Program-made: the position numbers and the translations under genes | Shown here: piece after piece, positions 6,135-49,929 of the stretch | Layout: each line of letters starts with the position of its first letter | Position numbering within the stretch: the first letter of the stretch is position 1 | Source: Silvibacterium acidisoli | GTDB taxonomy: Bacteria; Acidobacteriota; Terriglobia; Terriglobales; Acidobacteriaceae | DNA: 64,000 nucleotides | Direction of reading: 5' to 3' | Assembly: GCA_022870745.1 (NCBI GenBank) | Contig: CP085323.1 | Coordinates: 1,488,001-1,552,000 of the forward strand | Notes under the pieces: model-generated | Database searches by the model: none | What the model saw: only the letters and a program-made list of their open reading frames with translations | What the model was told of the DNA's origin: nothing

Positions 6135-6169
6135 ACTTGCCTCGCAAAAGTTCGGATGAGAGCAGGTTA

Positions 6170-34534: not shown

Positions 34535-34568
34535 AAATAAAAAGCCGGGGCGAAGAATCCGCCCCGGC
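34535..34568 (-). terminator. Terminator of the phosphoesterase gene
   Basis: On the minus strand a 9-bp GC stem (GCCGGGGCG / CGCCCCGGC) with a 7-base loop is followed by a run TTTTTATTT. It lies 23 bases after the stop at 34591. Confidence 0.9.
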
Positions 34569-34590: not shown

Positions 34591-36666
34591 CTATTTGCCG
34601 CCACTAAAGTCGAGGAGGCTGAAGAGGTCTCCAATAGCAGGGCTGTTGGTCGGAACATACGGATTATCCGCATTAACAGTGGGATTGGGGAAGTTGTCAC
34701 GGCTGCGAGCCGTCACTGGCGTCAATCCCCAATTGCGCTCGATGAACTTGAGAATCGAAACGTGGTCGGTGTACTCGTGCGAAATGTGGCCGCCCACGGT
34801 GTAGGGAGAGACGATGATCAGCGGAATGCGCGTACCGTCGCCGAAGTAATCGAGCGGCTGTACGTAGCCCGAGTCATAGTAGCCGCCGCCTTCATCGAAG
34901 GTGATGATGATGGCAGTGCTCTTCCACAGATCAGGGTTGCGCTGCACGTCAGTGATGATCTTCTGAGCAAAGCCTTCGAAGAGATCGAGCTTGGATGAGG
35001 ACGGGTGACCATCAACCAGGCCGCTGGGCTTGACGATCGAGACAGCAGGCAGCGTGTTGTTTGCGATGTCGCGGTAAAGATCGGTCGTGTCCTGGATGTG
35101 AGCCGCGCGAATAGCGGGGTTCGCCATGATCGAGGTGTCGTACTGGAAGGGATTGCAGATGGTGCAATACTCGTCGGTCTTATTGCCGATAGCGCTGAAG
35201 TTCAGCTGATAAGGATCGTCGATGTAGTTGTACCACTGGTCTCCGTAGTACTTCCACGAGATGTTGTTCTCGAGCAGCTTATCGCCGATGCTCTTAACCG
35301 GCGAAGGCGGAATGACGAAAACCGTGTTGTTCGGGTTCTTGTCGGTGTAGGCGTTGTTGCCGTTGCCGAAGTAGCCCGGGTTGTAGTTGTTCAGCAGGTA
35401 GTAGTGACCGGCTTCGCAGCGAGGATTGATCGGCGTGGCCAGCGACTTCAGGTAAGTGGTAATCGCCTTGACACCCGGCTGAGTCTGGTCTGAGCAGTCC
35501 GTGTAGGAACCGCCGCCGTAAGAGGGCGAACCATAAGAACCACCGCCGTAGCCATCTTCCATGTACCAGTTGTTGGTACCCTTGGCCGGGTTCGGATTCT
35601 CGATTTCGTCGACAACACCAGCATTGGCCGTGCCGCTGGCCACTTCCTGGTTGTGCGGCGGAGTAGCGGCATTGCCCTTGCCGTCGGTGAAGTAAATCAT
35701 GTCACCGTGACCGAGCATAATGTGATTCGCACCCGTTCCGCCGTCGACCGACTGGTGGAAGTTGTCGCTCATCGCATATTGGTCAGCAAGCTGCTTGAAG
35801 TAAGGCACGTCGCCCTGCTGCACGTTGTAGAAGCCCATCGCGGTCGAGCCTTCACCGGTAGTGACAGAGTTCGGCGAATACTCGGTGCTGAAATTGGCAG
35901 GCTGTGCAACGCCGTTCGTGCCAGCGCCTACCGTGGTTTCAACCCAGGGAAAGAGACCGGCATCGCAACCCGAGGGATTCTTTGCCGTCGCTTTATCCGC
36001 GCTGCAGTCCATCTGCTGCCACATCTGGTAGAAGCGGTGCACAGGGCTGGCGGCGTAGGAGTTGTAGGTAAAAGTCTTGCCGTTGGTCAGCTGGAAGGGG
36101 CCAGGAGGCAGGCTGTTCACATTGCTGATGCGGGCGTCCGGAGTTTCAGAGGTCTGCCCCGTACCACCGCTCACCAGCGAGGAGTAGTAGTCGCCGGGAA
36201 GACCATTTTCCGACTGTGTGGCCAGCGTAACGCTGTCGCCCTTTACATACGAATCCTTCGGACCGCCAACGAGAGGAGCAGGCAGGACAGATCCCTGGAA
36301 CGTAGTTTTCGCCGGGCTCAACTCGAACGCATCCGGCGCTTCGTCATAAGCGGCGCTCTGCTCGGCCTTCGAGAAGTTGGGGCCGGGCGTACCGTCGGCT
36401 TTCACGATGCCCTCGGAAAGCAGGTTCCAGACAGTTTCGCCCTTTCTGGTGGGAACATAAGTTGCAAACACGTGATCGAAGCTGCGGTTTTCACCGACGA
36501 TAACGATCACATGCTTGATGGGGGTGGCGGTCGAATTATCGCGGGATGGGCCTTGCGTCAGATTAGCGGCAACTGCATTGCCGATGGCCAACTGAAAGAT
36601 CGCAGCGGATAGAAGCCCCGTGCGCACCGTCCGCATGGCTGTGGATGCGAACTGCTGTGTGGTCAT
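34591..36666 (-). CDS. Secreted phospholipase C/acid phosphatase-type phosphoesterase
   Basis: The start is ATG 36666, with a perfect AGGAGG 5 bases upstream. The 691-residue product has a signal peptide (LLSAAIFQLAIGNAVAA) and the PF04185 phosphoesterase fold: HVIVIVGENRSFDHVFATY, FHQSVDGGTGANHIMLGHG, ITFDEGGGYYDSGYVQP, and IPLIIVSPYTVGGHISHEYTD. Several Gly/Tyr/Ser-rich inserts (GGGSYGSPSYGGGSY) are present. It probably releases phosphate from phospholipids or other esters outside the cell. The 144-base gap upstream suggests its own promoter. Confidence 0.92.
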   Translation of the reverse strand: MTTQQFASTAMRTVRTGLLSAAIFQLAIGNAVAANLTQGPSRDNSTATPIKHVIVIVGENRSFDHVFATYVPTRKGETVWNLLSEGIVKADGTPGPNFSKAEQSAAYDEAPDAFELSPAKTTFQGSVLPAPLVGGPKDSYVKGDSVTLATQSENGLPGDYYSSLVSGGTGQTSETPDARISNVNSLPPGPFQLTNGKTFTYNSYAASPVHRFYQMWQQMDCSADKATAKNPSGCDAGLFPWVETTVGAGTNGVAQPANFSTEYSPNSVTTGEGSTAMGFYNVQQGDVPYFKQLADQYAMSDNFHQSVDGGTGANHIMLGHGDMIYFTDGKGNAATPPHNQEVASGTANAGVVDEIENPNPAKGTNNWYMEDGYGGGSYGSPSYGGGSYTDCSDQTQPGVKAITTYLKSLATPINPRCEAGHYYLLNNYNPGYFGNGNNAYTDKNPNNTVFVIPPSPVKSIGDKLLENNISWKYYGDQWYNYIDDPYQLNFSAIGNKTDEYCTICNPFQYDTSIMANPAIRAAHIQDTTDLYRDIANNTLPAVSIVKPSGLVDGHPSSSKLDLFEGFAQKIITDVQRNPDLWKSTAIIITFDEGGGYYDSGYVQPLDYFGDGTRIPLIIVSPYTVGGHISHEYTDHVSILKFIERNWGLTPVTARSRDNFPNPTVNADNPYVPTNSPAIGDLFSLLDFSGGK

Positions 36667-36810
36667 ACTTCCTCCTGTTGAGCCTTGTGTCTCAACGCGA
36701 GGAAGCATAAGTCCCCGATCATTGCTGGCTCATATTTTTTTCGTGAATGAGCGATGAATAGATACAGTGAATCTGGGCTTCCCCGCATGGGTGGCGTAAG
36801 CAGGAAGTAA

Positions 36811-38568
36811 TTACTTGTTGTTTGCGGAGATAGTATCTTTCTTACACTGCAGGCAAGACTTTTCTACGACAATATTTTGTTTTGCCGTGGCCCCAGGAAG
36901 CACCTGTATCGTACCCATCATGCCTTTATCCTCGTGCTCGAGCAGATGACAGTGGTACGGGAACGTCCCGACGCTATTGGGATCGCGAAAGTCCATCCTG
37001 ACCCGGACGCTCGGATAGGTAAGCAATCGTCCGGAGGAGTACGGAACATTCACCGTATCGCGCAGGAAGTCTTCCGACACAGCCCGGCCGTTGTAGTCCA
37101 GCAGCAGGAAATGCAGCTGGTGAATATGAAAGGCATGAAGCTCGTTTGTGCGATTCTCGATAATCCAGTCTTCAACCGTTCCCTGCTGCGCGACGATGTT
37201 AGGGTCGGGGTCGTTCATATCGAACATCTTCGGAGTCTGGCCATCCACCGTCAGGTAAAACTCCACAGCACTTGTAGGATCGTTCGGATCGGCAAGCTTC
37301 TCCGAGAAGTAGAGGTGTCTCTCTCGCACCGGCTGCACATCTCCCAGCCAAGGACGCGCATCGGCAGACGGGGGCCCGGGCGATTCCTGCAAATGAGAGA
37401 CCGGTTCAGGCGCATTCGCTTCAGGAACGATCTGTGCAAGCATCCTGTTTGGATCGTTCTCGCCACCCGGTCCTGTATCGACACTCTTTGTAACGAGTAA
37501 ACCGGTTGTGCCCGCCGGCGGTCCCTGCACAACAAACTCGACGCGCGCTCCCGGCGGAACACCAAAGTGATTCTGCCAGTCCACACCGCCACGCAGCGGC
37601 ACTCCGTCCATGGCAATCAATCCCAGTGGCTGCGGCACGCGATTGATCAACACCTCGATGTTCAGGTAAGTCAGCGCCGAAGCATTCAGAACTCGCCATA
37701 GCTGCTTCTCGCCAGGCTTCACGCGGATCGTGGCTGGAGGATAGTCCGGGTACGGCACAGGGACGTAGTTGATCGAGAGATCCTTCGCCGGCATGCCGAA
37801 TCCCGTGCCAGTGTTCGCCGCATCTCCATCGCGATCAATCATGAACTTCGGCACAACCGGCTCAGACTTTGCGGGCGGAGCCTTTGGATTCATAAGATCC
37901 TGATCGCGAATGACGAAAACTCTCTCCGGCAATCCAGCCACCTCGCGACGTGTGTCCTCGATGCCTTCCACGATCAGCGCACCCGACGCACCACCCAGCA
38001 GTTGCTCCTTGCTAAAGCCATGAATGTGCGGATGGTACCAGTACAAGCCAGGAGCTTCATCCTCCGGAATGCGAAAGCGATATTCAAATGCCTTATCGCC
38101 AGGCTGGATCGATGTTTTCAATACATCGTCCTGATGGCAGACCGGCGGAACCGTCAACCCGTGGAAATGAAGATTCGTGGACACCGGGCTCATGATGCCG
38201 GAAGCACAGGGGGGCGAAGATGCACCCGCATGATGCATGTGCATCCCTTTGTCCATCTCGTGGCGAAGATCGCTTTGCTCGTTCTTCAGATGAATCACCA
38301 CGGTGTCACCGGGATGCACACGCAGGTTTGGAGATTCGTGCCCGTGCTCATCCGTATAGCAATAACGGACAGAGCCATCCGGCTGCGCGGAATTCGTCAC
38401 AGTCAACTGCACATTCAATACACCGTTGACGCTTCGCAGGTCAGCAGGCTCCTGCACCTCACTGCCAACTGCCGGGCGAGGACACGCTTCTTCGCCATGG
38501 GCATGCGCAAAGGAAAGCGAAGTGAAAAGAATTGTCAGCAGGATGGGGGAAAGAGGCTGCAACCGCAT
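36811..38568 (-). CDS. Multicopper oxidase, three-cupredoxin type (MCO-A)
   Basis: The start is ATG 38568, with GGTGGAG 6 bases upstream, giving a 585-residue product with a signal peptide (LSPILLTILFTSLSFAHA). All four copper motifs are present: NLHFHGLT, WYHPHIHGFS, AFHIHQLHFLLLD and YHCHLLEHEDKGMM. The long Met/His stretch (RHEMDKGMHMHHAG) between the first motifs could bind copper. It should oxidise a phenol, metal or similar donor with O2 in the periplasm. It follows MCO-B by 116 bases and is the last gene of the PQQ cassette. Confidence 0.92.
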   Translation of the reverse strand: MRLQPLSPILLTILFTSLSFAHAHGEEACPRPAVGSEVQEPADLRSVNGVLNVQLTVTNSAQPDGSVRYCYTDEHGHESPNLRVHPGDTVVIHLKNEQSDLRHEMDKGMHMHHAGASSPPCASGIMSPVSTNLHFHGLTVPPVCHQDDVLKTSIQPGDKAFEYRFRIPEDEAPGLYWYHPHIHGFSKEQLLGGASGALIVEGIEDTRREVAGLPERVFVIRDQDLMNPKAPPAKSEPVVPKFMIDRDGDAANTGTGFGMPAKDLSINYVPVPYPDYPPATIRVKPGEKQLWRVLNASALTYLNIEVLINRVPQPLGLIAMDGVPLRGGVDWQNHFGVPPGARVEFVVQGPPAGTTGLLVTKSVDTGPGGENDPNRMLAQIVPEANAPEPVSHLQESPGPPSADARPWLGDVQPVRERHLYFSEKLADPNDPTSAVEFYLTVDGQTPKMFDMNDPDPNIVAQQGTVEDWIIENRTNELHAFHIHQLHFLLLDYNGRAVSEDFLRDTVNVPYSSGRLLTYPSVRVRMDFRDPNSVGTFPYHCHLLEHEDKGMMGTIQVLPGATAKQNIVVEKSCLQCKKDTISANNK

Positions 38569-38684
38569 GAAATCTCCACCCGAGCATTCTTCCAATACTC
38601 GCCACTGGATGGTGTTAACGGCAGATGAATCAAAATCTTTCTTCTCCTCGCGGGACAAGTGGATACGGGCGGGTGAAGCGTTCG

Positions 38685-40052
38685 CTAAACATAATCGATC
38701 AACTGCATGAAGCCATAGTCCATGTGTAACTGCTGATGGCAATGAAAAAGTGTCTTACCGGGATTGTCGGCAACGAAATCAACCTTCATGGAGCTGTAAG
38801 GAGGGATGTTGACCACATCCTTCATCAGACCGGAGCACAGTTTCCCGGCGATGCTGACGATCTCAAAGCTATGCCGGTGCAGATGCAGAGGGTGAAACTC
38901 ACCGCTTGCGTTCGTGAATACAAGCCGGTAGCGCCGGCCCTGCTGAACCTTCAATGCCGGAGTATCGGGATAAGATTTTCCGTTGACCGTCCAGCTCTGT
39001 AACTTATCAGCAGCGGTAGCCACGGGTGCGAAGACCATCGGAATCTCCTCCGCCGGTAGAGAATCACTGAAGGCATTCGCAAAGTCGAGATAGCTCCAGT
39101 CCGTCGCTTTTGGATCCACCCACACAGGCGTGCCGCTCGCTCCCGCGTATTCCACGACGCGCCCCAGCCCCTTGGCCCGGTCGTCGCTGCTTGCGGAACC
39201 CAGGACCCACACACCCGGAGATTGCATCTCCACGATAACGTCCAGCCTCTCGGCAACCGCCATCGTGATGGTCTCCACGGATCGGGGCTGCGGAACCCTG
39301 TTGCCATCCATTGCGATCACCGTGAATCGATGCCCTGGCAGTGCGAGCGTAACCGCCTCTGTCGCACTCGCATTCAGCAGGCGAAAGAGGACACGCTGCC
39401 CCTGCCGCACACGGATCGGCTCGGACGCTGACATGAGCCTCCCATCGAACGAAGCGTATTTATAGTGGACGTCCAGCGCATTCATCGGCGGCCCCATCGG
39501 TACCAGCGACGGCCCCCAGTGATGAATGCTTAAAAAGATCTCCTGGTCGTAACTTCCGCTGTCATACTTCGGCTCGACATACAAGAACCCGAACTGCCCG
39601 GTGTAAGTCGCACGCGAGAGATTGTCACGAGCTTCCGTATGCGTGTGATACCAGCGAGTGCCGGAGGGATTTGGCGTAAACCGGTAAGTGACGCGCTCCT
39701 GCGGCGCGATCATCGGCGATCCCTCTTCCATCGCACCGTCGTTGATCGAATCAATATGCAGGCCATGCCAATGCACCAGCTCCGGAACCGGCGATTGATT
39801 GATTACGTCGATACTGACCGGAACACCTTCACGCAGGCGAAGGATTGGTCCGGGGACCTGGCCGTTGTAGCTCATCGTCGGCACATGAATGCCAGGTGCG
39901 AGCTCAAGATGAATCGGCTCGATACGCAAGGTGTGGTCAGCGGTCTTCCGCTGGACTTGGGCTGCACGAAGAGCACCATGGGTGGCGGCAGCGCCCGCGA
40001 TCGTCAGGAACTGGCGGCGATTGATCGAATGATTCATCAGGCGATCTCTCAT
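38685..40052 (-). CDS. Multicopper oxidase with Tat signal (MCO-B)
   Basis: A 455-residue laccase-like enzyme with a twin-arginine signal (SINRRQFLTIAGAAA), so it is exported folded. Copper motifs: LVHWHGLHID, WYHTHTEA, HPLHLHRHSFEI and FHCHQQLHMDYGFM. The start at 40052 forms an ATGA overlap with the PQQ dehydrogenase stop; a second ATG at 40037 gives a cleaner Tat leader and is an alternative. It differs from MCO-A in size and export route, so the two are not recent duplicates. Confidence 0.92.
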   Translation of the reverse strand: MRDRLMNHSINRRQFLTIAGAAATHGALRAAQVQRKTADHTLRIEPIHLELAPGIHVPTMSYNGQVPGPILRLREGVPVSIDVINQSPVPELVHWHGLHIDSINDGAMEEGSPMIAPQERVTYRFTPNPSGTRWYHTHTEARDNLSRATYTGQFGFLYVEPKYDSGSYDQEIFLSIHHWGPSLVPMGPPMNALDVHYKYASFDGRLMSASEPIRVRQGQRVLFRLLNASATEAVTLALPGHRFTVIAMDGNRVPQPRSVETITMAVAERLDVIVEMQSPGVWVLGSASSDDRAKGLGRVVEYAGASGTPVWVDPKATDWSYLDFANAFSDSLPAEEIPMVFAPVATAADKLQSWTVNGKSYPDTPALKVQQGRRYRLVFTNASGEFHPLHLHRHSFEIVSIAGKLCSGLMKDVVNIPPYSSMKVDFVADNPGKTLFHCHQQLHMDYGFMQLIDYV

Positions 40053-41668
40053 GGCAAGGCAAAGGCGAAGATGTCGCTACCGGCGGCGATGGCGAAATAC
40101 TGCTTTCCATCCACCGCGTAGCTCATCGGTGAAGCGTGCGGCGGCTGGCCCATGTTGAAATGCCACAGCGACTTTCCCGTAGCTCCATCGACCGCCTCGA
40201 AAGAGTTTGCATCATTACCAAAGAGCACCAGCCCGCTCGCTGTAGACATAACACCGGCAAAGGAGTGGCCCTCGCCTACCTGCGCATTTCTCCACTCGAA
40301 GTGATTGGTGACTGGGTTATAAGCGATCAGCACCTTCTGCTTCACTTCATCCTGCGGATGCTTTACCCCAGTTGAGTAATACTCCCGCCCTTCTTCAAAC
40401 TTCTCCACTTTTGCCGAGTACACATTGCAGTCATCGAGCGACATGAAATAGAAGAGACGTGTCGCTTCACTGTAGGTCGGCGAAAACCAGTTCGTAGCGC
40501 CCGCGTAGCCAGGGCAGATGCGCGCACCTTTTTCATCGGGAATGAGGCCGGTGAGAATCGGACGCCCGTTCTCGTCGATTCCCTTTGCCCAGTTCTGCTT
40601 CAGCGAGAACTGTCGTGCAGAAAGAAATTTTCCATTCGTGCGGTCGAGAACGTAAACGAAACCGTTACGATTTGCCTGGAGGATAAGCTTACGCGGCTTG
40701 CCCTCGTAAACTGAGTCCACCAGCACCGGCGTTTCCACCGCATCGTAGTCGGCGAGGTCGTGCGGCGTGAACTGGAAGTACCATTTCAGCTTGCCGGTAT
40801 CGGGATCGATCGCGAGCACGCAATTCGTATAGAGATCGTCACCCGGCCTGACTGTACCTTCAAAATCCGGTGAAGGGTTGCTCGTTCCCCAATAGATGGT
40901 ATTGAGTTCCGGGTCGAATGTACCGGGCATCCAGGTTGTGCCGCCGCCATGCATATACAGGTCGCCCGGCCAACTGGACGATCCAAATTCACCCGGCGCG
41001 GGGATCGTCCAGAACCGCCACTCCTCCTTGCCTGTCTCGGCATTGAAAGCCGCAACGAAACCGCGAACACCGTCGTCTCCACCCGAAGTGCCGACGATAA
41101 CTTTGTCCTTCACCACCAGGGGCGCGCTGGTGGCGCCGTAGTTCCTGTTGCCCGTGGCGTATGCCACATCCCACAACAGGTTTCCGGATCGCGCATCGAG
41201 GCAAACGAGATGCGCATTATCCGTCTCCATGTAGAGCCGGTTTCCGAGCACGGCAACGCCGCGGTTGATATGCCCGGAAGCATCATCGACCAGCCCTTCA
41301 GTGATCTGCCGGGAGTGATGCCATATCACCTGCCCGGTGCTTGCGTAAATCGCATAAGCATCGTTCGATCCCGTCACGTACATAACGCCGTTAACGACAA
41401 CAGGAGTTACCTCGAGCACTCCGGCGTTTCGGCTGTGAAAGACCCACTGCGCGCGCATCTGCCCAACATTTTGTGGAGTGATCTGCGTAAGGCTGGTAAA
41501 GCGTCGCCCTGTGTAATCACCGTTGTAGGAGAGCCAGTTGTCGTGAATCCCCTTCTTCTCAAGTTGCGCCTGCATCACACCCTCAGCCGCGTTGGACTGT
41601 GCGAGCACAACCGATGAAGCAAGCATCATGACCGCGAGTGCTAAACCTGTTCTTAACCCGCTCATCAT
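40049..41668 (-). CDS. PQQ-dependent alcohol dehydrogenase family protein, D-Y-D type
   Basis: A 539-residue periplasmic quinoprotein of the methanol/ethanol dehydrogenase fold, with a signal peptide (LAVMMLASSVVLAQ) and no haem domain. PQQ and metal site landmarks are GTSGGDDGVRGF, GTSNPSPDF with Asn264, and TPHDLADYDAV with catalytic Asp307. Asp309, two residues later, is the extra acidic residue typical of lanthanide-using enzymes (XoxF-type), whereas calcium enzymes have Ala there. The glutamate metal ligand of the family looks replaced by Asp198, and the usual adjacent-Cys disulphide is absent (ASGHINRG). It overlaps both neighbours by 4 bases. Substrate unknown. Confidence 0.9.
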   Translation of the reverse strand: MMSGLRTGLALAVMMLASSVVLAQSNAAEGVMQAQLEKKGIHDNWLSYNGDYTGRRFTSLTQITPQNVGQMRAQWVFHSRNAGVLEVTPVVVNGVMYVTGSNDAYAIYASTGQVIWHHSRQITEGLVDDASGHINRGVAVLGNRLYMETDNAHLVCLDARSGNLLWDVAYATGNRNYGATSAPLVVKDKVIVGTSGGDDGVRGFVAAFNAETGKEEWRFWTIPAPGEFGSSSWPGDLYMHGGGTTWMPGTFDPELNTIYWGTSNPSPDFEGTVRPGDDLYTNCVLAIDPDTGKLKWYFQFTPHDLADYDAVETPVLVDSVYEGKPRKLILQANRNGFVYVLDRTNGKFLSARQFSLKQNWAKGIDENGRPILTGLIPDEKGARICPGYAGATNWFSPTYSEATRLFYFMSLDDCNVYSAKVEKFEEGREYYSTGVKHPQDEVKQKVLIAYNPVTNHFEWRNAQVGEGHSFAGVMSTASGLVLFGNDANSFEAVDGATGKSLWHFNMGQPPHASPMSYAVDGKQYFAIAAGSDIFAFALP

Positions 41669-43041
41669 TTTCCCTCGGCTCCCCCTTGCACCTTTGCCTC
41701 ATCAAGCAGGCCCCAGTCGCTGCCGTCTGAAGCGATCAGGTGCAGCGCAACTCGCGATGGCTTGAAGTCCAGGGGAATATCCGCATGCACTGTTGCGACA
41801 CTCTTCGGCGACACCTGATCGAGTGTTACCCGCTTCGTATCACGGCCGCCATGATCGTACACACGAAGCTCAAGGTGCCCCTCAGCAACCGGGCTGAATA
41901 TTCCATCGACATGGATTCCACCCGCAGAGACTTTCGCCTCCAAACTGGATGAAGTCAAGCCCGCCTCCGTAACTCTAACCACCTGCGGACTGGCATGGAC
42001 CGGGTACCAGGTCGTATCGAAGGCCGCGCTAGCACCCGGCTTAAGCGTCACCAGAGGACTGTTAACCTCTGCCTCCATGTAATAGGGCATCTGCAACTGT
42101 GGCCGAATCGCTATCTCAGGATTGCCTGCATCGTTCATTCGGATTGACGGACCATTCTTGTAGAAGATAACCGTAGCCTTGCCTGGATAGCTTGCTGACG
42201 AGTCGTAATCAAAACGCTCAATCATTCCGAATCCGCTCTCACCATCTACGACAGCAAGCCATCCACCCGGCGAATCGACCCACACTTCGTTTTGCAGATT
42301 CATCCAATGCAAACGGAAGAGTCCACCTTCGATACTGAAGGACGGATCATTGACTAACCCATCGCGAACATGGAAGTGATCGAGGTAAGACGATGATGGA
42401 TTCTCCTCCGTATAGGCCCAGAAGTCGCGATTGAATGTCTGAGGATTGGCCGCGCTCGCGAGATTGTATTGCGACACCGATTGCACCGACCATTTCAACG
42501 TGTGCGCCGTGGCGTTATGCATCAGAGCATGGAAGCGTATCGCCGGAGAATCGGCGTCAATACTTACCTGGCGTGTGTACTGCAGGCCTGTTACGGGGTC
42601 CGCAGGTCCCTCAAGCAGTACCGTGCAGTGCGCACTTTGCTCGAGCGTCTTGAATGAATAGGCCCCATCGTCAAGCAACGACGATTCCAATACCCAATGC
42701 TGCTCGTCGTCATTGCCCTCGGGCATCGGCCAGATCTTATCGCCACCGTAATTGATCCATTTACCGGCAGCCTGTTCGGACGAGATTGTCTGCCCGGCGA
42801 ACCTTGGATTCACGAAGAGATAGGGATGGCCATCAAACTCGACCTGCATCAGCCTGCCTCCGAGTTGAGGAACAAAGGTCAGCTTCACCCAACGATTCGC
42901 TAACTGCTCCGCCTGCCAGCCCTTGTACTGTACAGCTTCGACAGTGCATTTCTGACCCCATATCGTCGCGGTCGAACCGAGCCCGAGACCGACCACCAGC
43001 ATCATGCAACGCCATCTCGCCGATGCGAGAAGATTATTCAT
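41665..43041 (-). CDS. DUF4380 protein, galactose-mutarotase-like fold
   Basis: A 458-residue secreted protein (signal CMMLVVGLGLGSTATIWGQ) with the DUF4380 opening LANRWVKLTFVPQLGGRLMQVEF and YLFVNPRF, recalling the aldose 1-epimerase supersandwich. The domain fills about 40-330 and a beta-sandwich with Val/Asp-rich strands ends the protein. Such folds bind carbohydrates. It overlaps the SMP-30 gene by 8 bases and the PQQ gene by 4, so it is translated with them. Whether it is an enzyme or a binding protein cannot be told. Confidence 0.85.
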   Translation of the reverse strand: MNNLLASARWRCMMLVVGLGLGSTATIWGQKCTVEAVQYKGWQAEQLANRWVKLTFVPQLGGRLMQVEFDGHPYLFVNPRFAGQTISSEQAAGKWINYGGDKIWPMPEGNDDEQHWVLESSLLDDGAYSFKTLEQSAHCTVLLEGPADPVTGLQYTRQVSIDADSPAIRFHALMHNATAHTLKWSVQSVSQYNLASAANPQTFNRDFWAYTEENPSSSYLDHFHVRDGLVNDPSFSIEGGLFRLHWMNLQNEVWVDSPGGWLAVVDGESGFGMIERFDYDSSASYPGKATVIFYKNGPSIRMNDAGNPEIAIRPQLQMPYYMEAEVNSPLVTLKPGASAAFDTTWYPVHASPQVVRVTEAGLTSSSLEAKVSAGGIHVDGIFSPVAEGHLELRVYDHGGRDTKRVTLDQVSPKSVATVHADIPLDFKPSRVALHLIASDGSDWGLLDEAKVQGGAEGK

Positions 43042-44002
43042 ACGGAATAAACCCGTGTGTCAGAGTTGGCAGGATGTAGACCGACTTTGTAGCGGTGATG
43101 TAGAGCGTTGAGTCATCCTTGCCGCCCCAGGAAAGGTTCGCCGGCTGCTCCGGCAATTCAATAGTGCCAAGATGCTTTCCCGACTGGCTCCAAACCCAGA
43201 TGCCTCGTGGCCCGGTCACAAAGAGGTGCCCGGCCCTGTCGAAGCGCATTCCATCCGGAACACCTTCGCCATCGGCTCCATCTTCTTTGCCAAAGATGCG
43301 GCCGTTCGAAACCGTTCCGTCAGGATGAAAGTCATAAACCCAGATCGTGCGCTTATCGCTGTCATCGACGAACAGCTTCTTGCCGTCAGGAGTAAACGCC
43401 AGTCCGTTCGGCTGACTAAGCTCCTTTGTCAGCAGGGTGACCTTTCCTGAAGAGTCGAGACGATAGACTCCCTGGAATGGAATCTCCTGCTTTTCGCCCT
43501 TTGGCAAATCGAGCGTCGGATCGGTGAAGTAAATCGCGCCATCAGGTCCGAGCACCACGTCGTTGGGGCTATTGAAGCGCTGGCCCTCATACCTGTCGGC
43601 CAGTACCTTGTAGCTCCTGCCATCCGGGGTGAGGCGAATGATCGCACGCAGAACGCTCGCACAGTCGAGCAGGCGGTGCTCGCGATCGTAAGTATTTCCA
43701 TCCGGATCGCCAAGAGCGATCATCTCTTCACGGTGCCCGTCAGGATAGAGACGAAAGATCTTATTGATCTCTTCATCGCTCACCCAGAGATAGCCCGCCC
43801 TGTCCCACACAGGGCCTTCAGTGAAGCCGAAGCCGCTTCCCATGGTCTTGAGGCTGGCATTCCTCGGGATTAACTTCCAGAAGGCCTCATCCTCGGCCGT
43901 CAGCCGGTAGCTGCGCGGAGCCTTCACCTCCTGGGCCAATGCCGAAAATGTGCCTGCCAGCGCACAAACTAAAGCCAGGCCGGCAACGATTGTTTGCTTC
44001 AT
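43034..44002 (-). CDS. Secreted SMP-30/gluconolactonase-like protein
   Basis: A 322-residue beta-propeller protein starting at ATG 44002, with a signal peptide (TIVAGLALVCALAGTFSALAQ). Metal-site motifs of the family are FTEGPVWDRAGYLWVSD (Glu), FNSPNDVVLGPDGAIYFTDP (Asn) and LSQPNGLAFTPDGKKLFVDDS (Asn, Asp). SMP-30 enzymes hydrolyse lactones, the usual product of sugar or lactol oxidation by a PQQ enzyme. The gene starts 13 bases after the cytochrome stop. The pathway link is inference. Confidence 0.9.
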   Translation of the reverse strand: MKQTIVAGLALVCALAGTFSALAQEVKAPRSYRLTAEDEAFWKLIPRNASLKTMGSGFGFTEGPVWDRAGYLWVSDEEINKIFRLYPDGHREEMIALGDPDGNTYDREHRLLDCASVLRAIIRLTPDGRSYKVLADRYEGQRFNSPNDVVLGPDGAIYFTDPTLDLPKGEKQEIPFQGVYRLDSSGKVTLLTKELSQPNGLAFTPDGKKLFVDDSDKRTIWVYDFHPDGTVSNGRIFGKEDGADGEGVPDGMRFDRAGHLFVTGPRGIWVWSQSGKHLGTIELPEQPANLSWGGKDDSTLYITATKSVYILPTLTHGFIPYE

Positions 44003-44015
44003 GGTGTGTCTCATC

Positions 44016-44792
44016 TCATTTCTCGTCGGCACCTGTTTTCAGCAGGTAGCTGAGAAGATCATCGAGTTCCTTGTTGCTCAGGCGCGACTCGTAATCGCCT
44101 GGCATCATCAGTGCTTTGTCCGGCTCGGTGCGGAGAACTTTACTTCTACTTACAAGATGAATGCCACCATCGTTCGCCTGCAAAACGATTGAGAAGTTGT
44201 CCTGGTTGCGAATCATCCCGGAGAGCTTGGCGCCATCTTTCATCAGCACGACGACTGCGGATTCTTCGCGGCCCCTCTTCCGCTCGGGATGAAGAATGCT
44301 CGCGCGCAGATCCTCCGCCGAGTGGCCGCTGCCATAGCCGCTGAGATCTTCCGCAATGAATCCGCCGCGGCCATTCACCATGTGGCAACTCCCGCATGCT
44401 GCCTTTCCGAAGAAGACCATTTCTCCCTGTGCGGGGTCGCCCGGCAGCTGCTTCATCGCTCCTACACCTTGCAAAGTACGAAGGTGCGCAACGATCGCTT
44501 TGATCTTTTCGTCCCCAAGATAGCCGAAGGCAGGCATGCCGGTTCCCGCAATGCCACGCTGCACAATGCGAATGAGGTCAGCATCGCTCAACGAGACGAC
44601 TTCTCTTCGTGTCGCGATATTCGGAGCGCGCTCCCCACTGCGGCCATCGCTACCGTGACAGGCCCCACAGGTAGAAGCAAAGAGTTGGGGACCGTTCGCC
44701 GCATGTTCCTGCGCAAGCAGGCGCGCCTGAAACGCAAGGAGGGCAATCACGGCGAGCAACCAGACCGGCTTAGTACGACAAAGCTTCATCAT
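44016..44792 (-). CDS. Dihaem c-type cytochrome with Planctomycete-type haem domain
   Basis: A 258-residue periplasmic protein (signal WLLAVIALLAFQARLLAQ). The first haem motif CGACHGSDG (Cys42, Cys45, His46) has a possible axial Met86 in GTGMPAF. The second, CGSCHMVNG (Cys133, Cys136, His137), leads into a small beta-barrel-like segment (VVVLMKDGAKLSGMIRNQ, GGIHLVSRSKV) like the TIGR02603 haem domain of Planctomycetes and Verrucomicrobia. It is the likely electron acceptor of the PQQ dehydrogenase four genes down. It follows the TonB receptor by 58 bases. Confidence 0.9.
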   Translation of the reverse strand: MMKLCRTKPVWLLAVIALLAFQARLLAQEHAANGPQLFASTCGACHGSDGRSGERAPNIATRREVVSLSDADLIRIVQRGIAGTGMPAFGYLGDEKIKAIVAHLRTLQGVGAMKQLPGDPAQGEMVFFGKAACGSCHMVNGRGGFIAEDLSGYGSGHSAEDLRASILHPERKRGREESAVVVLMKDGAKLSGMIRNQDNFSIVLQANDGGIHLVSRSKVLRTEPDKALMMPGDYESRLSNKELDDLLSYLLKTGADEK

Positions 44793-44850
44793 GCTGAGAC
44801 AGAAATCTGCGGACCGGGATCATCCCGGTCCGCAGCTCGTGGATATTTAT

Positions 44851-47800
44851 TTAGAAGAGTAGCTTGAGAGCGACCTGCATGATGCGCGGATCGTTCGCCG
44901 AGTTGATGTAACCCATGCCGCCGGGCCCAAGGTTGTCGATGCTGCCCGAAGGGTTGTTGAACTGCGCGTGATTGAAGACGTTGAAGGCTTCTGCACGGAA
45001 CTCCAGCTTGGTTGAGTCGGTGAAGCCGAAGGTCTTCAACAGGGCCAGATCGGTATTGTTCAATCCAGGTCCGTGGAAGAAGCGGCGTTTGGAGTTGCCG
45101 AAGCTGCCCAGATTCTCCACCGAGAAGAGATTGGTGTTGAAATACGGGTTGCCGTGGCGCGGATTCTTATCGGCATAGAGCTTGCCTCCGGTTGGATCAT
45201 AGTTCGGCAGGTCGGCGCTTGTGCCCGTCAGCGAACGATCATCGCCCTCTGACATGGTAATCGGCAGCCCCGTCGCAAAGGTGGTGATACCTGACACCGC
45301 CCATCCGCCCAGCGTTTTCTTCACCAGTCCCTTCTGCGGCAGAAAACCGTCGATAGGCAGCGGCACGTTGTAGCTGGCGACGAAGTTATGGGTTACGTCG
45401 AAGCTTGACAGGCCGCGGCTAAGCAGCGGATTAAATACGTTCGTCAACTCACCTTGCGCAGACGAGTTATCGAACGAACGGCCATAGGTGTAGCCAATCA
45501 GCAGGTCGGCATACTTGTTGTTCTGCTGCAGCGCGATCTGCAGCGAGTTGTAACTCGAACTGGCTGCGGTCTTCATGTAAGGGTCAGACGCAAAATTGAT
45601 GCCAAGAATCGGCCTCGTGCCTTCGACCGTAGTGCCATCGGCAAGCGTGTAGACGTTCGTTTCAAGGCCAGGACCGCATGCAGTCTGTCCTGGAGCCAGG
45701 GTCGAAGAATTCAGTGACAAACAGAGATTGGGATCGCCGGGATTCGACTCTTCCTGCGTGATGAGCTTACGTCCGATATTGCCGACATAGTTCACGCTGA
45801 GTACTGTTTTCGAAGTCAGCTCACGCTGGTAGCTGAGAAAGAAGCTTTCGATATAAGGAAGCGTATTGTGTATGTCGAAAGCAAGAGATCCGGAGATCGG
45901 TTCAACACCTGCCCAATTGAAGCTGGTGTCCGGATTACTCGCCGAGACCTTTGTCGATGGAAAGACGAACGGGAAGCGCTGCCCTTCGCTGTTGCCTGTA
46001 GCGCGATCGATAAACGGCGTTGAGAACTGCGACGGTACAGGGCTGGCATAAAACAATCCGTAAGGAGCATCGCCCACTTCTACAAACCCTGTCGCATCCT
46101 GGATGTTGGTGTAGAAGATGCCGTAGCCGCCACGAACGCTTGTCTTGCCCGGTGCGCCAAAGATCCGTTCTGTCCAGCCGGAGGTCTGCGGCGTAAAGGC
46201 GAAGCCAAAGCGGGGAGCGACGTTGTTCCAGCGAATAGGTGCCAGCGTTCTCGGCACACCCGGATCCCCCGGCACGAGATAGCCCTTAGGGGCGCCTGGA
46301 AAAAGAACCGACTGAACTCCGGGAACAATCGCTTCGAGCTTGTTCTGCGTGTCATACCATGGCGTGCTGATTTCGTAGCGAAGACCCATGTTCAAGGTCA
46401 GGCTGGGAGTCGCACGCCAGCTGTCCTGCGCATATGCGCCCACGTAGTGACTGCGTGAATCGAGGATCTGGAGGCTGGCCTGGATAAAGCTGGCTGGGGC
46501 GCCGATCAGGAAGTCTGTGAAATCATCCTGCGATTCCTGGCCATTGAACCCAAACGATCCATTCTCACCGTAGTAATTGCGCTCGTTGATCTGGTCATAG
46601 TGATAGCTGGCTCCAAACTGCAGAGTGTGCGACCCAATCACGCGCGTGTAGTTATCGATCCACTGAAAGGTGTTGTTGTACTGACGGAGCGTGTCGGCGG
46701 GCACACCAATCGTGAAACTGTTGAAGCTGACATTGGGAACCGCCTCATAAGCCGGATTGATGGCTCCAATGCCGCCCGATGGTCCCCATGGCGATACAAA
46801 CCCCAAAGATGAAAGCGTCGTACCCACTGACCCGGTCGGCACGCCCTGCAGATTCACGTCGCGCAGATAGGCAAAGCGAAAGTCGTTTACCGTGCTGCTG
46901 CTGAAGGTCTTCGTCCAGCCCAGGTTGACCATCTGAGCTTTGCCCTTTGTCGTTGCCGCGAATCCAGGCGTATTGCCTCCGCCATAAGGATTGTCGAGCG
47001 TAAAGCTGTCGACAAAGTAGTACCCGAAGAAGCTTCCCATGTGCGTGTTGATGTCTACACGGCCGCTTCCCTTGTAGTCGGAGAGTGTTTGCGAAAATGC
47101 CGCAGTCGAATAATTGCCATTGCTGACATTCTGCTGCGGTATGTACTGAATGAGGTGCGCTGCAGGCGTATCCCAGGCAGCTGTCGGAACCTGCCCATTT
47201 GGAAACACGCATTGCGTGTTAGAGGTACAAAGCTGAGGGTTCCCGCTGTTGGCCGTAGCCGGATCGGCAAAGTACTGCTCTCCCGGAGTGACGGCGTAGC
47301 CAAGTCGCTGGCTTAGAACATTCGCCCAGGCATTTCCGTTTACCGTAATCGGCGAGGCGCCATTTTGCCATTCCTGCGAGATCAGGCTGGCGACATTGCC
47401 CGAACGGCTTGCCGCCGAAGGCACGGGATAATTCTGGGTCAGGCCCTGTATCTGCTTCGTCCCTTGAAAGTCGCCGAAGAAAAAGATCTTGTCCTTCTTC
47501 ACCGGACCGCCAAGAACTCCGCCGAAAATATTCTGAATAAATACGCCACGTTGCTGCGCAAAATAGTTGCGGGCATCGAGATCCGTGTTGCGCAGGAAGT
47601 CGAAGACATCGCCATGAAAATTATTGGTGCCCGACTTCGTGACCACGTTCACCTGGCCACCGCTGAAGTTTCCATACTCGGCGTTGAAGTTATTGGTGAT
47701 GATACGGAACTCGGCAATCGAGTCGAGATTGGGAACGATCGCAGCGCCGTTTTCTACACCTTCGTTCGCATCCGCACCGTTGATCATGAAGCCATTTGAA

Positions 47801-48381
47801 GCCTCGCGGCCGCCGTTGACTGACTGGTTGCCGGCATTCAAATCACCGGAAACCGGGCGGCTTCCGCCTTCAGAGACATTCTTGTACGGCGAAACGCCCG
47901 GCTGAAGCTGCAGCAGATCTGTAAAGGAACGGCCATTCAGCGGCACAGCTTCGATCTTTGTCGACTGGATCACTTCGCCCAGCTGCGTGTTGGCAGTTTC
48001 TACCTGCAGCGCATCGGCTTCGACGTGCTCCGTTTCTGTAACCGAACCGACCTTCAGCGCGACATCGACGCGCACCGACGAGTTGGCATCGATGCGAATA
48101 TTTTCCTCGGAGAATTCGCGGAAGGAAGACTGCGCAGTCTTGACCGTATAAATACCTACCGGCAGCACAGGAAAGCTGTAGAAGCCCTTACCATCCGACA
48201 CGGTGCTGACCGCGACACCGGTCTGCTGGTTAGTCGCCGTCACAGTCACACCCGGAATGGCAGCGCCACTTGGGTCGGTGATCAGTCCGGAGATCACACC
48301 GGTGATATCCGCAAACGCACAAGGAACGCTGAGAATCAGCAGTACAGGGAAAACAATCCGCAAGAGCTTGCGCAAAATCAT
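44851..48381 (-). CDS. Oar-like TonB-dependent receptor
   Basis: A 1176-residue outer-membrane protein with a signal peptide, a carboxypeptidase-regulatory-like domain (about 27-115, GLITDPSGAAIPGVTVTATN), a plug (about 120-260, VPLNGRSFTDLLQLQPGVSP) and a beta-barrel ending in the aromatic residue Phe (IMQVALKLLF). This is the typical acidobacterial transporter family, which usually imports carbohydrates or other nutrients. GAGGAGAGG precedes the ATG. It heads the cassette, so it probably imports the cassette's substrate or cofactor (for example lanthanide or PQQ), which is inference. Confidence 0.93.
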   Translation of the reverse strand: MILRKLLRIVFPVLLILSVPCAFADITGVISGLITDPSGAAIPGVTVTATNQQTGVAVSTVSDGKGFYSFPVLPVGIYTVKTAQSSFREFSEENIRIDANSSVRVDVALKVGSVTETEHVEADALQVETANTQLGEVIQSTKIEAVPLNGRSFTDLLQLQPGVSPYKNVSEGGSRPVSGDLNAGNQSVNGGREASNGFMINGADANEGVENGAAIVPNLDSIAEFRIITNNFNAEYGNFSGGQVNVVTKSGTNNFHGDVFDFLRNTDLDARNYFAQQRGVFIQNIFGGVLGGPVKKDKIFFFGDFQGTKQIQGLTQNYPVPSAASRSGNVASLISQEWQNGASPITVNGNAWANVLSQRLGYAVTPGEQYFADPATANSGNPQLCTSNTQCVFPNGQVPTAAWDTPAAHLIQYIPQQNVSNGNYSTAAFSQTLSDYKGSGRVDINTHMGSFFGYYFVDSFTLDNPYGGGNTPGFAATTKGKAQMVNLGWTKTFSSSTVNDFRFAYLRDVNLQGVPTGSVGTTLSSLGFVSPWGPSGGIGAINPAYEAVPNVSFNSFTIGVPADTLRQYNNTFQWIDNYTRVIGSHTLQFGASYHYDQINERNYYGENGSFGFNGQESQDDFTDFLIGAPASFIQASLQILDSRSHYVGAYAQDSWRATPSLTLNMGLRYEISTPWYDTQNKLEAIVPGVQSVLFPGAPKGYLVPGDPGVPRTLAPIRWNNVAPRFGFAFTPQTSGWTERIFGAPGKTSVRGGYGIFYTNIQDATGFVEVGDAPYGLFYASPVPSQFSTPFIDRATGNSEGQRFPFVFPSTKVSASNPDTSFNWAGVEPISGSLAFDIHNTLPYIESFFLSYQRELTSKTVLSVNYVGNIGRKLITQEESNPGDPNLCLSLNSSTLAPGQTACGPGLETNVYTLADGTTVEGTRPILGINFASDPYMKTAASSSYNSLQIALQQNNKYADLLIGYTYGRSFDNSSAQGELTNVFNPLLSRGLSSFDVTHNFVASYNVPLPIDGFLPQKGLVKKTLGGWAVSGITTFATGLPITMSEGDDRSLTGTSADLPNYDPTGGKLYADKNPRHGNPYFNTNLFSVENLGSFGNSKRRFFHGPGLNNTDLALLKTFGFTDSTKLEFRAEAFNVFNHAQFNNPSGSIDNLGPGGMGYINSANDPRIMQVALKLLF

Positions 48382-48676: not shown

Positions 48677-49243
48677 CTATCGATGCGAGGATGCAACGAC
48701 TGAGAGAAGATGGGCGTGCACAATGAAGCGCTGGGGAGCAGAGCCGACATAGTAGAAGGGGTAGCAGGTGACGAGCGTCAACGCTGGCCGGGATTGAATG
48801 TCCAGCACCCTCGTCTGATCCGGCGTAACGATCTCAGTCGAATCGACGGAGTACAAGTAAGCGCCGTTCGCGCCGGCGAGTTGAATGACCATCCCCTTGC
48901 GGATAGCCTTGAGCGGTCGCAGATAAGTATCGCGGTGTCCCGCCAGACCGACAGTTCCCAGCCCTCCCGGCAGTGCCGTCCCAGGAATGTGTCCCACGCC
49001 GCGTAGCAGATCGGCTTTCTCAATGCCCGATGTCATCGGGACAGCAAGATGCAGGGCCGGAATTGTCATCTGGCCGATCACGCCATCCTGCGCCTGATGC
49101 ACATCTGCAACGTGCGCCGCCACACGGGCCGCACCATGCGCGGAAAGATACTGAACGGCGAGCCAGCAGAAGACGAGAGCCGAGACGATCCAAAGCCCCG
49201 GCTCCGCGATACGGCTCCAGCGCGCGGTGTGAAATCGGCCCAT
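48677..49243 (-). CDS. Class D-like sortase
   Basis: Starts at ATG 49243, 8 bases after the stop of the LPxTA gene. The 188-residue product has a membrane helix at about 15-33 and a sortase barrel with His103 (GLAGHRDTYLRPL), Cys160 (LTLVTCYPFYYVG) and Arg172 (APQRFIVHAH). The FYYVGSAP stretch and length match class D-type enzymes. Sortases cut a C-terminal LPxT signal and join the protein to another molecule. All catalytic residues are present. Its upstream neighbour carries a matching signal. Confidence 0.93.
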   Translation of the reverse strand: MGRFHTARWSRIAEPGLWIVSALVFCWLAVQYLSAHGAARVAAHVADVHQAQDGVIGQMTIPALHLAVPMTSGIEKADLLRGVGHIPGTALPGGLGTVGLAGHRDTYLRPLKAIRKGMVIQLAGANGAYLYSVDSTEIVTPDQTRVLDIQSRPALTLVTCYPFYYVGSAPQRFIVHAHLLSVVASSHR

Positions 49244-49251
49244 GCGAAGCT

Positions 49252-49929
49252 TTAGACTTTGCGAGCTGAGAGTCTGAGGGTCGTCAGCGTGGCTGCTGCG
49301 AGCAGGGTCAAAACTCCGCCGAGCAGGATAACGGGAGTGTCGCTCGCCGTATGCGGCAGGCTCTTCACCTGCGGCTTTGCGCTCGCAACTTCCGAGAGCT
49401 TCGCCGCCTGGATGCCGGGTCCGACATGCGTGGGTGTCAGCAGCCAAAGAGTAATCAGCTGCATTTCATCCTGGCTCAGTCCGCTGAGTTGTGGAGAGTG
49501 CCCTTCCGACTCCGGATCGACCGCGGCAACAGGCTTTCCGTTTGCCTTGGCCAACGCAACGGCATCGTTCTTCGGGTAGACGAATTCAACAGCCTCTCCC
49601 CTGCCGAAAGAGAAACCTCGCAGAGCGCTCTGACCATCCGCGGCAGACTGCCATGCGACGGCTCCGCGCTTCGTGCTCTCCAGGCTCCTCTTCGGCCTGA
49701 TACCGATGAAGGTAGCCTTGTCGCTGCCTTGTGTCGCATCGATGCGGACAATGTATCTGTCTTTCAGTTGATCCAGAAGCGTTATGGAGTAGCTTCCGGG
49801 AGGTAACGTCGCGCCAGGAACGAGAGTTCTCTCTGACAATGTGAACTGCGCCTGGGGAAGACCTGCCGCCACAAGCGGCAGTGGCGCCAGGAACAACAAC
49901 GCGGCTTTGCACAATGCTTTGACTGTCAT
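49252..49929 (-). CDS. Secreted protein with LPxTA sorting signal, probable sortase substrate
   Basis: The start is ATG 49929 with AAGGAGG 5 bases upstream. The 225-residue product has a signal peptide (ALLFLAPLPLVAAG) and a beta-rich domain (ERTLVPGATLPPGSYSITL, VRIDATQGSDKATFIGIRPK). It ends in LPHTA (191-195), a helix of about 22 residues and a basic tail (RLSARKV), exactly the layout of a cell-wall sorting signal. The mature domain's function is unknown. It sits directly before the sortase gene. Confidence 0.88.
   Translation of the reverse strand: MTVKALCKAALLFLAPLPLVAAGLPQAQFTLSERTLVPGATLPPGSYSITLLDQLKDRYIVRIDATQGSDKATFIGIRPKRSLESTKRGAVAWQSAADGQSALRGFSFGRGEAVEFVYPKNDAVALAKANGKPVAAVDPESEGHSPQLSGLSQDEMQLITLWLLTPTHVGPGIQAAKLSEVASAKPQVKSLPHTASDTPVILLGGVLTLLAAATLTTLRLSARKV

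Follow-up and report, generated by a model that had tools for sequence, protein, structure and literature searches.

The window, by which we mean the whole 64-kb stretch of DNA that was analysed, carries on its minus strand a run of seven ORFs, all at the places given for them in the ORF list, which by Pfam profile encode a CarboxypepD_reg and outer-membrane barrel protein, a cytochrome c, an SGL (SMP-30) protein, a DUF4380 protein, a PQQ protein and two multicopper oxidases, MCO-B and MCO-A. An earlier note on this DNA had named these same-strand genes and their families, and both the ORF coordinates and the Pfam matches bear it out.

Features of the gene run and its flank (positions in the window).
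Feature	Position	Strand	Profile match or remark
TonB-dependent-receptor-like outer-membrane protein, core	44851..48381	-	PF25183 E 2.4e-186 (OMP_b-brl_4), PF13620 E 3.5e-19 (CarboxypepD_reg)
13-bp GC-rich hairpin then T-rich stretch, between receptor and cytochrome genes	44807..44835	-	
Dihaem cytochrome c, C-terminal TIGR02603 domain, core	44016..44792	-	two CxxCH; PF00034
SMP-30/gluconolactonase-like lactonase, core	43034..44032	-	PF08450 E 1.3e-49; ORF from GTG 44032
DUF4380 protein, core	41665..43041	-	PF14315 over cut-off
Quinoprotein dehydrogenase, nearest acido-empty-quinoprotein group A, core	40049..41668	-	TIGR04528 and TIGR03075 scores (in text)
MCO-B, laccase-like multicopper oxidase, twin-Arg motif	38685..40052	-	PF07731, PF07732, PF00394
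MCO-A, multicopper oxidase	36811..38568	-	PF07731, PF07732; ORF open from TTG 38742
Phosphoesterase (acid phosphatase / phospholipase C type)	34591..36708	-	PF04185 E 3.1e-52
Terminator-like hairpin after phosphoesterase	34544..34568	-	11-pair stem with T tail; scan overall gave no more sites than shuffles

Computed from the ORF coordinates, the SMP-30 and DUF4380 genes overlap by 8 bases, and the DUF4380/PQQ and PQQ/MCO-B junctions by 4 bases each, which agrees with the overlaps of 4–8 bases reported earlier for this stretch; the 13-base gap given there between the cytochrome and SMP-30 genes holds only if the latter starts at ATG 44002, with ATG 44014 and GTG 44032, the codon that opens the ORF, also possible. 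The probable start of MCO-A is ATG 38568 and not TTG 38742, which leaves 116 bases between this gene and MCO-B, and 102 bases after MCO-A lies a further same-strand gene beyond the seven, the phosphoesterase. The claim that every product has an export signal is matched by simple motif tests, which find a strongly hydrophobic N-terminal stretch in six of the products and a twin-Arg motif in MCO-B. The genes look like three units: the core, MCO-B, and MCO-A with the phosphoesterase.

The hairpin between the receptor and cytochrome genes folds at -28.5 kcal/mol (z -5.17, with 0 of 200 shuffles as good) and is possibly an attenuator or a terminator. In relatives, 12 receptor–cytochrome junctions were folded, without shuffles, and long stems are visible by eye in three (L063, L068 and L072), which only suggests that an attenuator is conserved. 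The hairpin after the phosphoesterase is possibly where a transcript running across the cluster ends; a scan of the region found 13 terminator-like sites against 13.5 expected from shuffles.

The core of receptor, dihaem cytochrome, SMP-30 protein, DUF4380 protein and quinoprotein recurs in relatives beyond chance, and the copper oxidases do not. Among 80 named DUF4380 loci, the best 80 of 251 confirmed and picked by DUF4380, the quinoprotein is found in 61, the receptor in 44 (some matches distant, at 25–34% identity), the cytochrome in 41 and the lactonase in 40; 33 of the 80 are shorter than 12 kb, so that partners absent from them may lie off the contig. DUF4380 is followed directly by the PQQ gene on one strand in 52 loci, and the cytochrome and SMP-30 genes are adjacent in 28 of the 33 loci that have both. 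The gene order of the window, without the MCOs, returns in L063 and L070, and the same run with lyase and Rid genes added in L057, L059, L061 and L068, and in L058 without the receptor. Several of the 80 share their contig with a locus that has a G handle (L073 with G227, for example), and none of the DUF4380, orthologue and paralogue locus sets is phylogenetically independent. As for the conserved gene order by which the earlier note would have its cassette judged, the content of the core is kept, its order is often changed, and the copper oxidases are not conserved.

A single seven-gene cassette was therefore rejected, as both MCOs are nearly absent from DUF4380 loci: an MCO-A homologue occurs in 0 of the 80 named loci and an MCO-B homologue in one, L063, where it lies about 6 kb beyond the quinoprotein gene and on the other strand. 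MCO-A stands with the phosphoesterase: as in the window, the latter is the next gene downstream in 8 of the 12 homologous loci that were examined (12 of 46 other rows: ranks 2–10, 12 and 13, plus G087 from the host's genus; two of the 12 are from G224), the phosphoesterases of these eight being 60–77% identical. We place MCO-A, probably, outside the cassette and paired with the phosphoesterase.

MCO-B shows another association. Of its homologues, 18 of the 30 examined adjoin other quinoproteins, of clades other than the window's; the sample is ranks 2–33 (32 loci) less L170 and L196, in which no MCO-B ORF was called, several of the 18 loci are near-identical neighbours, and L204, whose MCO-B homologue lies two ORFs from a haem-fused-type quinoprotein, is counted as non-adjacent. 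L170 gave no quinoprotein match by tblastn. The host has four MCO-B genes, counted from the 6 of 16 candidates that were scored, and four quinoprotein genes; three of the former lie beside three of the latter, a number reached by 1 of 2,000,000 draws when gene order is assumed random for four plus four genes among a round 4,500. The MCO-linked quinoprotein of L160 scores 760 bits with TIGR04528 (cut-off 650). MCO-B looks like a recruited partner, a lineage-specific neighbour of the quinoprotein outside the conserved core, so that the earlier inclusion of the copper enzymes survives in part, for MCO-B with its quinoprotein and not for MCO-A.

The copper His/Cys motifs are kept in both oxidases, and the copper-resistance profiles stay below cut-off (CopA 166 of 479 and CueO 109 of 525 bits for MCO-B, CueO 91 of 525 for MCO-A). 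Together with the overlap of MCO-B and the quinoprotein gene, the intact motifs might make the two oxidases the working heart of the run, in an oxidative attack on aromatics such as the earlier note had allowed for with aromatic alcohols; we consider this highly improbable in view of the pairing of MCO-A with the phosphoesterase and the single MCO-B among the DUF4380 loci.

The quinoprotein itself finds its best NCBIfam family in TIGR04528 (acido-empty-quinoprotein group A), at 521.3 of 650 bits, and scores 470.6 of 480 bits with TIGR03075 (PQQ-dependent dehydrogenase, methanol/ethanol family), both below cut-off; it belongs to a clade separate from group A. Seven residues, Asp198, Asn264, Asp307, Asp309, Arg334, Asn393 and Trp394, are present in all 54 quinoprotein sequences. 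The marks of the methanol/ethanol family we take to be a vicinal Cys pair near PQQ, a catalytic Asp, and metal-ligand Asn and Glu: the catalytic position (Asp307) and Asn264 are kept in 54/54, the position of the metal-site Glu is Asp198 in 54/54, and at the positions aligned to the vicinal Cys-Cys of 1kv9 a Cys is found in 0/54. Asp309, two residues after the catalytic Asp, corresponds to the extra Asp that is presumably the lanthanide mark of XoxF/PedH. Of the PQQ site the protein has most residues, together with an Asp of lanthanide type, but it lacks the vicinal cysteines. With this Asp, and with the quinoprotein alcohol dehydrogenases 1kv9 and 6zcv as its nearest solved relatives by sequence, it might oxidise alcohols or aldehydes as a lanthanide-type alcohol dehydrogenase, the lactonase acting on an unrelated lactone. 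We think this quite unlikely, however, given that the vicinal pair is missing and that genes for a DgaE-like lyase, a lactonase and a protein of mutarotase fold often stand alongside.

PQQ dependence, which had been assumed at first, is not a given: profile search found neither PqqE nor PqqC over cut-off in the host genome, nor PqqU (79 of 80 genome candidates scored). Two matches in the window were rejected as signs of PQQ synthesis, a PqqC-like one that belongs to the CADD family (TIGR04305, 291 of 200 bits) and a weak PqqE-like one at 12952-14004, for which the best profile is MoaA, below cut-off. PqqU is a TonB-dependent receptor by which non-producers scavenge PQQ, and the accessible part of the report on it places it, among Acidobacteria, only in Vicinamibacteria (PMC12124388); the window receptor is likewise of TonB-dependent type, but scores 19 of 1200 bits as PqqU. 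It may therefore be asked how, or whether, bacteria with four quinoprotein genes and none of these three genes over cut-off obtain PQQ. One answer would be that the quinoprotein is PQQ-empty in this host and has a binding or scaffold role, the gene set there being no oxidation pathway, as the name of its nearest family, the host's gene content, the absent cysteines and the change of the metal-site Glu to Asp would allow. The other PQQ- and metal-site residues are, however, kept in 54/54, the cytochrome is retained, and 49 of 250 genomes of the class, the module carriers G227, G233 and G242 among them, have PqqC above its cut-off, and we regard an empty protein as very unlikely. A periplasmic oxidation of the kind proposed in the earlier note stays plausible, as DUF4380 is repeatedly accompanied by receptor, quinoprotein, cytochrome c and lactonase.

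Among the remaining core proteins, the cytochrome exceeds the TIGR02603 cut-off (81.1 of 68.15 bits) and is likely the electron acceptor, and the lactonase has all four short SMP-30 motifs, which we take to carry the metal ligands. The DUF4380 protein matches the mutarotase profile NF052227 at E 2.1e-7, yet with 30 of 550 bits. Its AlphaFold model (mean pLDDT 88.9) has galactose mutarotases as best Foldseek matches, with probability 1.00, TM 0.43–0.44 by query and 0.58–0.60 by target, and rmsd 6.6–7.3 for the best two, and the same kind of fold is also common to the YidC periplasmic domain. Mutarotases use a His and a Glu in the pocket for catalysis; in an alignment of 52 DUF4380 sequences several Glu are invariant and His72 is the sole invariant His. 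A mutarotase-like fold is thus predicted, and the protein is possibly an aldose 1-epimerase. DUF4380 is found without a quinoprotein in 19 of the 80 loci, and in L041 and L047–L050.

A hint of the substrate comes from two further genes of the relatives, a DgaE-like PLP ammonia-lyase and a Rid protein, each in 56 of the 80 DUF4380 loci and both in 52; 47 of the 61 PQQ-bearing loci have one or the other. The lyase has TIGR01437 (DgaE family) as best profile (E 4e-54) and D-glucosaminate-6-phosphate ammonia lyase, 7lc0, as best solved structure (E 1.4e-33), its scores being far under the cut-offs (184 of 385 bits for TIGR01437, 144 of 600 for NF047797), and the PLP-Lys motif SGGK is present in 55 of 55 long ORFs. 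Export signals occur in most of the DgaE-like and Rid products. For the lyase, export rests on the twin-Arg motif (54/57, against 6/62 for PQQ and 8/77 for DUF4380 proteins), because the hydrophobic-stretch test is passed by 16 of 57. The association extends to quinoprotein orthologues without DUF4380: DgaE-like genes occur in 10 of 15 such loci and in 1 of 20 paralogue loci (Fisher p 1.5e-4), and Rid (E <= 1e-10) in 10 of 15 and 0 of 20 (Fisher p 1.6e-5), or 7 of 15 orthologue loci at >= 40% identity. The orthologue sample is 15 of the 17 non-DUF4380-linked rows down to G100:C2, leaving out G164 and G242:C1; the 20 controls, quinoproteins 45–51% identical, are a selection of rows taken in descending order from that list, some of their loci being short (6.9–14 kb) and many from families other than the orthologues'. 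Rarer companions are genes for a sugar-acid transporter, a KDG-kinase-like protein and a KDPG aldolase; in L149, genes of KdgK-like and aldolase type stand next to the set, and KdgK-like and transporter scores are below cut-off. Nearby glycosidases are GH31 and GH116, and a de-N-acetylase, expected for GlcNAc, occurs in L042 and L043 and in 0 of the 80 DUF4380 loci.

From gene content, neighbourhoods, motifs, site residues and predicted fold we infer that the run probably serves to oxidise a sugar, which may be an amino sugar, outside the cytoplasm, and with this function the direction of electron flow and every catalytic step below. Since DgaE-like and Rid genes stand beside the core in most related loci, a 2-amino sugar such as glucosamine is favoured, and the relatives' gene set suggests its oxidation to 2-keto-3-deoxygluconate (KDG). 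We tentatively read the window's core, with a probability of roughly 0.4, as a pared-down version of a periplasmic module, conserved in acidobacteria, for oxidising a 2-amino sugar, joined by MCO-B and with MCO-A in the next unit. The receptor would take the sugar across the outer membrane, the DUF4380 protein would set its anomeric form, the quinoprotein would oxidise the pyranose at C1 to the lactone and pass electrons to the cytochrome, and the SMP-30 enzyme would open the lactone to the sugar acid. In relatives, glucosaminate would then be converted to KDG and ammonia outside the cytoplasm, followed by import and splitting. MCO-B, having joined the window quinoprotein as its relatives joined others, may pass electrons of the chain to O2.

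The window cluster itself has neither a DgaE-like nor a Rid gene, nor have the same-family loci L037 and L039 or L063, L070, L073 and L124 (the last from the cultured Edaphobacter modestus), so that a plain aldose may be the substrate in the window's branch; three DgaE-like genes lie elsewhere in the host genome. More broadly, the core might oxidise ordinary aldoses or oligosaccharides, as glucose dehydrogenases do, with the relatives' DgaE-like and Rid genes belonging to neighbouring, separate pathways. Lactonase, cytochrome and mutarotase-fold protein fit any aldose, L149 and L040, the latter on one contig with L075, have GH31 next to the set, and the core lacks lyase and Rid in the window, L037, L039, L063, L070 and L124, but the frequency of DgaE-like genes in the DUF4380 loci, and in orthologue over control loci, makes this rather unlikely in our view.

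Acidobacteria are abundant in soil, where amino sugars are a large nitrogen pool. If the amino-sugar route to KDG is true, ammonia would be released outside the cell interior, and exported PLP enzymes would be needed; the repeated pairing of MCO and quinoprotein raises the question whether a soluble copper oxidase can drain a quinoprotein. The furthest extension, that Terriglobia carry out full amino-sugar oxidation outside the cytoplasm with an exported PLP lyase and Rid, yielding periplasmic ammonia and KDG, and also that Acidobacteriaceae MCOs were repeatedly recruited as the O2-reducing partner of quinoproteins, in a short, membrane-free chain in hosts like this one in which neither PQQ synthesis genes nor PqqU are seen, is speculative and, taken whole, unlikely. 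Literature on the name of the quinoprotein family, on DUF4380 and on the pathway does not describe the gene set in its titles and opening lines of abstracts.

One familiar scheme close to this is the periplasmic PQQ glucose dehydrogenase or gluconate route, in which an aldose is turned into lactone and then acid in the periplasm, as proposed here; in place of the membrane-bound glucose dehydrogenase, the window has a protein of alcohol-dehydrogenase type that comes with cytochrome c and lactonase genes of its own. DgaE is the nearest solved homologue and the best profile of the relatives' lyase, which keeps the PLP lysine motif, but the substrate of DgaE is phosphorylated, whereas the lyase has a twin-Arg motif, stays below the cut-offs and is absent from the window cluster. 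In the ong cluster of Pseudoalteromonas, for oxidative chitin utilisation, the accessible part of the report describes a C1-oxidised 2-amino sugar acid that a PLP enzyme deaminates to KDG, in a pathway that likewise includes a RidA-family protein, a KDG kinase and TonB-dependent receptors (PMC9537276). There, according to the same part of the report, the acid arises through an LPMO and is deaminated in the cytoplasm by the fold-type III PLP enzyme OngC (PMC9537276), whereas here the acid would come from quinoprotein and lactonase, and the relatives' lyase, DgaE-like and SelA-related, carries its twin-Arg motif.

The five genes running from the TonB receptor through the dihaem cytochrome, SMP-30 lactonase and DUF4380 to the PQQ quinoprotein form a real core that recurs in relatives, and in those relatives it bears an amino-sugar signature. 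In this complete 5.36 Mb genome, ORF calls bear out the close array of seven same-strand genes that the earlier note had read as one cassette, and domain assignment agrees with its protein families; the cytochrome contains a pair of CxxCH motifs and, at its C-terminus, a TIGR02603 domain above cut-off. A DUF4380 relative at E <= 1e-10 is present in 44 of 250 genomes of the class Terriglobia and absent from the genus mate G087 in that scan. Around DUF4380 in the fetched loci the quinoprotein, cytochrome, lactonase and receptor are frequent, in variable order; no quinoprotein was found in loci L041 and L047-L050, and none of the partners in L053-L056, which hold more distant DUF4380 relatives.

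Named genomes gave 251 confirmed DUF4380 relatives, the best 80 of which were retained for counts: quinoprotein 61, receptor 44, cytochrome 41, lactonase 40, MCO-B 1 and MCO-A 0. The 47 loci of at least 12 kb among these 80 have quinoprotein 39, receptor 36, lactonase 29 and cytochrome 28, and the quinoprotein comes immediately after DUF4380 in 52/80. The window's five-gene order is matched exactly in L063 and L070; L057, L059, L061 and L068 carry the core run plus additional genes, and L058 the same without the receptor. Receptor-cytochrome junctions folded in 12 relatives have long stems, differing in sequence, in three (L063, L068, L072).

Coordinates of features in the window and the host genome (G000)
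Feature	Position	Remark
Hairpin, 13 bp	44807-44835	between receptor and cytochrome genes; stable, z -5.17
MCO-A and phosphoesterase	34591-38568	recurrent two-gene pair
Protein with sortase domain	48677-49447	E 2e-25
Gene closest to XrtA-associated tyrosine autokinase model	49987-50691	below cut-off
REP-associated tyrosine transposase-like gene	3539-4027	67.7 of 80 bits, below NCBIfam cut-off
L141	G000:C1:1693000-1712900	DgaE-like with twin-Arg motif, RraA-like, ROK regulator, GH116 and ThuA genes
L165	G000:C1:1404000-1423900	host MCO/quinoprotein neighbours
L166	G000:C1:3150000-3169900	host MCO/quinoprotein neighbours

MCO-B looks like a recruited copper oxidase, and MCO-A probably belongs to a different unit. 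The likeliest start of MCO-A is ATG 38568, 116 bases downstream of MCO-B, with the phosphoesterase on the same strand 102 bases beyond it and, further downstream, a terminator-like hairpin from a scan that gave 13 such sites against 13.5 expected. Of the 12 MCO-A homologue loci examined, 8 have immediately after MCO-A a phosphoesterase with 60-77% identity to that of the window, so ending the cassette at MCO-A, as had been proposed, appears to divide a pair.

Among 32 MCO-B homologue loci ranked below the window, the ORF was called in 30, and in 18 of these it lies directly beside a quinoprotein or one gene away, either as MCO-B, trihaem cytochrome and quinoprotein (the L162 cytochrome by tblastn only) or with a quinoprotein fused to two haem motifs. 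In the midpoint-rooted tree these 18 form a single clade (100/99); the window's MCO-B lies outside it, in a 21-row group (98/94) with L167 and L203, where no quinoprotein neighbour of that kind was found. The quinoproteins (37 rows) form three separate clades, the cassette type and two MCO-B-linked types. Four MCO-B genes were found in the host, which has four PF01011 genes; three of each kind are paired as neighbours (of L165 and L166, one has the haem-fused quinoprotein, the other the intervening trihaem cytochrome), and 1 of 2,000,000 simulated random placements equalled this adjacency; MCO-B is therefore unlikely to follow the quinoprotein by chance, yet it is rare in the DUF4380 module.

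The window quinoprotein best matches TIGR04528, below cut-off, with TIGR03075 just below its own. Across 54 aligned cassette quinoproteins, the window's included, the catalytic Asp, metal-site Asn, an extra Asp, Arg334, Asn393 and Trp394 are invariant, the metal-site position that is usually Glu is Asp in all 54, and no vicinal cysteines were found. The extra Asp is a mark of lanthanide-type quinoproteins; judged by its residues, the site seems capable of binding PQQ and a metal. In the host, with its four PF01011 genes, nothing scores above cut-off as PqqE, PqqC or PqqU; PqqC exceeds its cut-off in 49/250 class genomes. A weak PqqC match at window 5433-6206, which could mislead a call of PQQ synthesis, is instead a CADD-family protein (TIGR04305 above cut-off). 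PMC12124388 reports PqqU within Acidobacteria from Vicinamibacteria only.

The AlphaFold model of DUF4380, from 52 sequences, has a mean pLDDT of 88.9, and among solved structures Foldseek ranks two galactose mutarotases highest (probability 1.00; TM by query 0.43-0.44, by target 0.58-0.60); glycosidase domains and the YidC periplasmic domain share this fold. Mutarotase activity is a plausible prediction from this model.

Partner genes of relatives suggest the chemistry of the module. Within the best 80 of 251 loci, a SelA-like PLP protein and Rid each occur in 56 and together in 52, and at least one of the two is present in 47 of the 61 loci that carry the quinoprotein. The L040 PLP protein is nearest, by profile and solved structure, to DgaE, D-glucosaminate-6-phosphate ammonia lyase, at scores far below profile cut-offs. 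All 55 long DgaE-like ORFs have the PLP-lysine motif; 54/57 carry a twin-arginine motif close to the N-terminus, and 16/57 pass a simple hydrophobicity test. Two sets of Rid proteins have the twin-arginine motif in 15/23 and 3/41, and a hydrophobic stretch in 13/23 and 35/41. Rarer partners in the same 80 are cupin (30; for example L118:8911-9822), RraA-like (22), NagB-like (12), KdgK-like (4) and KDPG aldolase (3), with a transporter nearest the D-galactonate family in 19; de-N-acetylase was found in none of the 80, and is present in L042 and L043. L149 has in a row cytochrome, RraA, quinoprotein, Rid, DgaE-like, transporter, kinase and aldolase genes. Lyase and Rid genes are lacking in the window cluster, in the same-family loci L037 and L039, and in L063, L070 and L124. 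Host DgaE-like matches lie in three places outside the cluster, all below cut-off; one of these places is L141, whose sugar-acid-type transporter is 56% identical to that of relatives.

As a control, we compared 15 quinoprotein orthologue loci that lack DUF4380 (about 63-74% identical) with 20 paralogue loci (45-51% identical): DgaE-like occurs in 10/15 versus 1/20 (Fisher p 1.5e-4), Rid in 10/15 versus 0/20 (Fisher p 1.6e-5) and cytochrome in 15/15 versus 9/20 (p 5.5e-4), values that overstate the case because the loci are mutually related and the sets unlike in family make-up and length.

No description of this gene set was found in the part of the literature that was searched. Among the literature examined, the nearest described logic is the oxidative chitin pathway, in which, according to PMC9537276, a PLP enzyme converts glucosaminate to 2-keto-3-deoxygluconate and a RidA protein is encoded in the cluster; as described there, it differs from the module of the window and its relatives in its enzymes and its cytoplasmic location.
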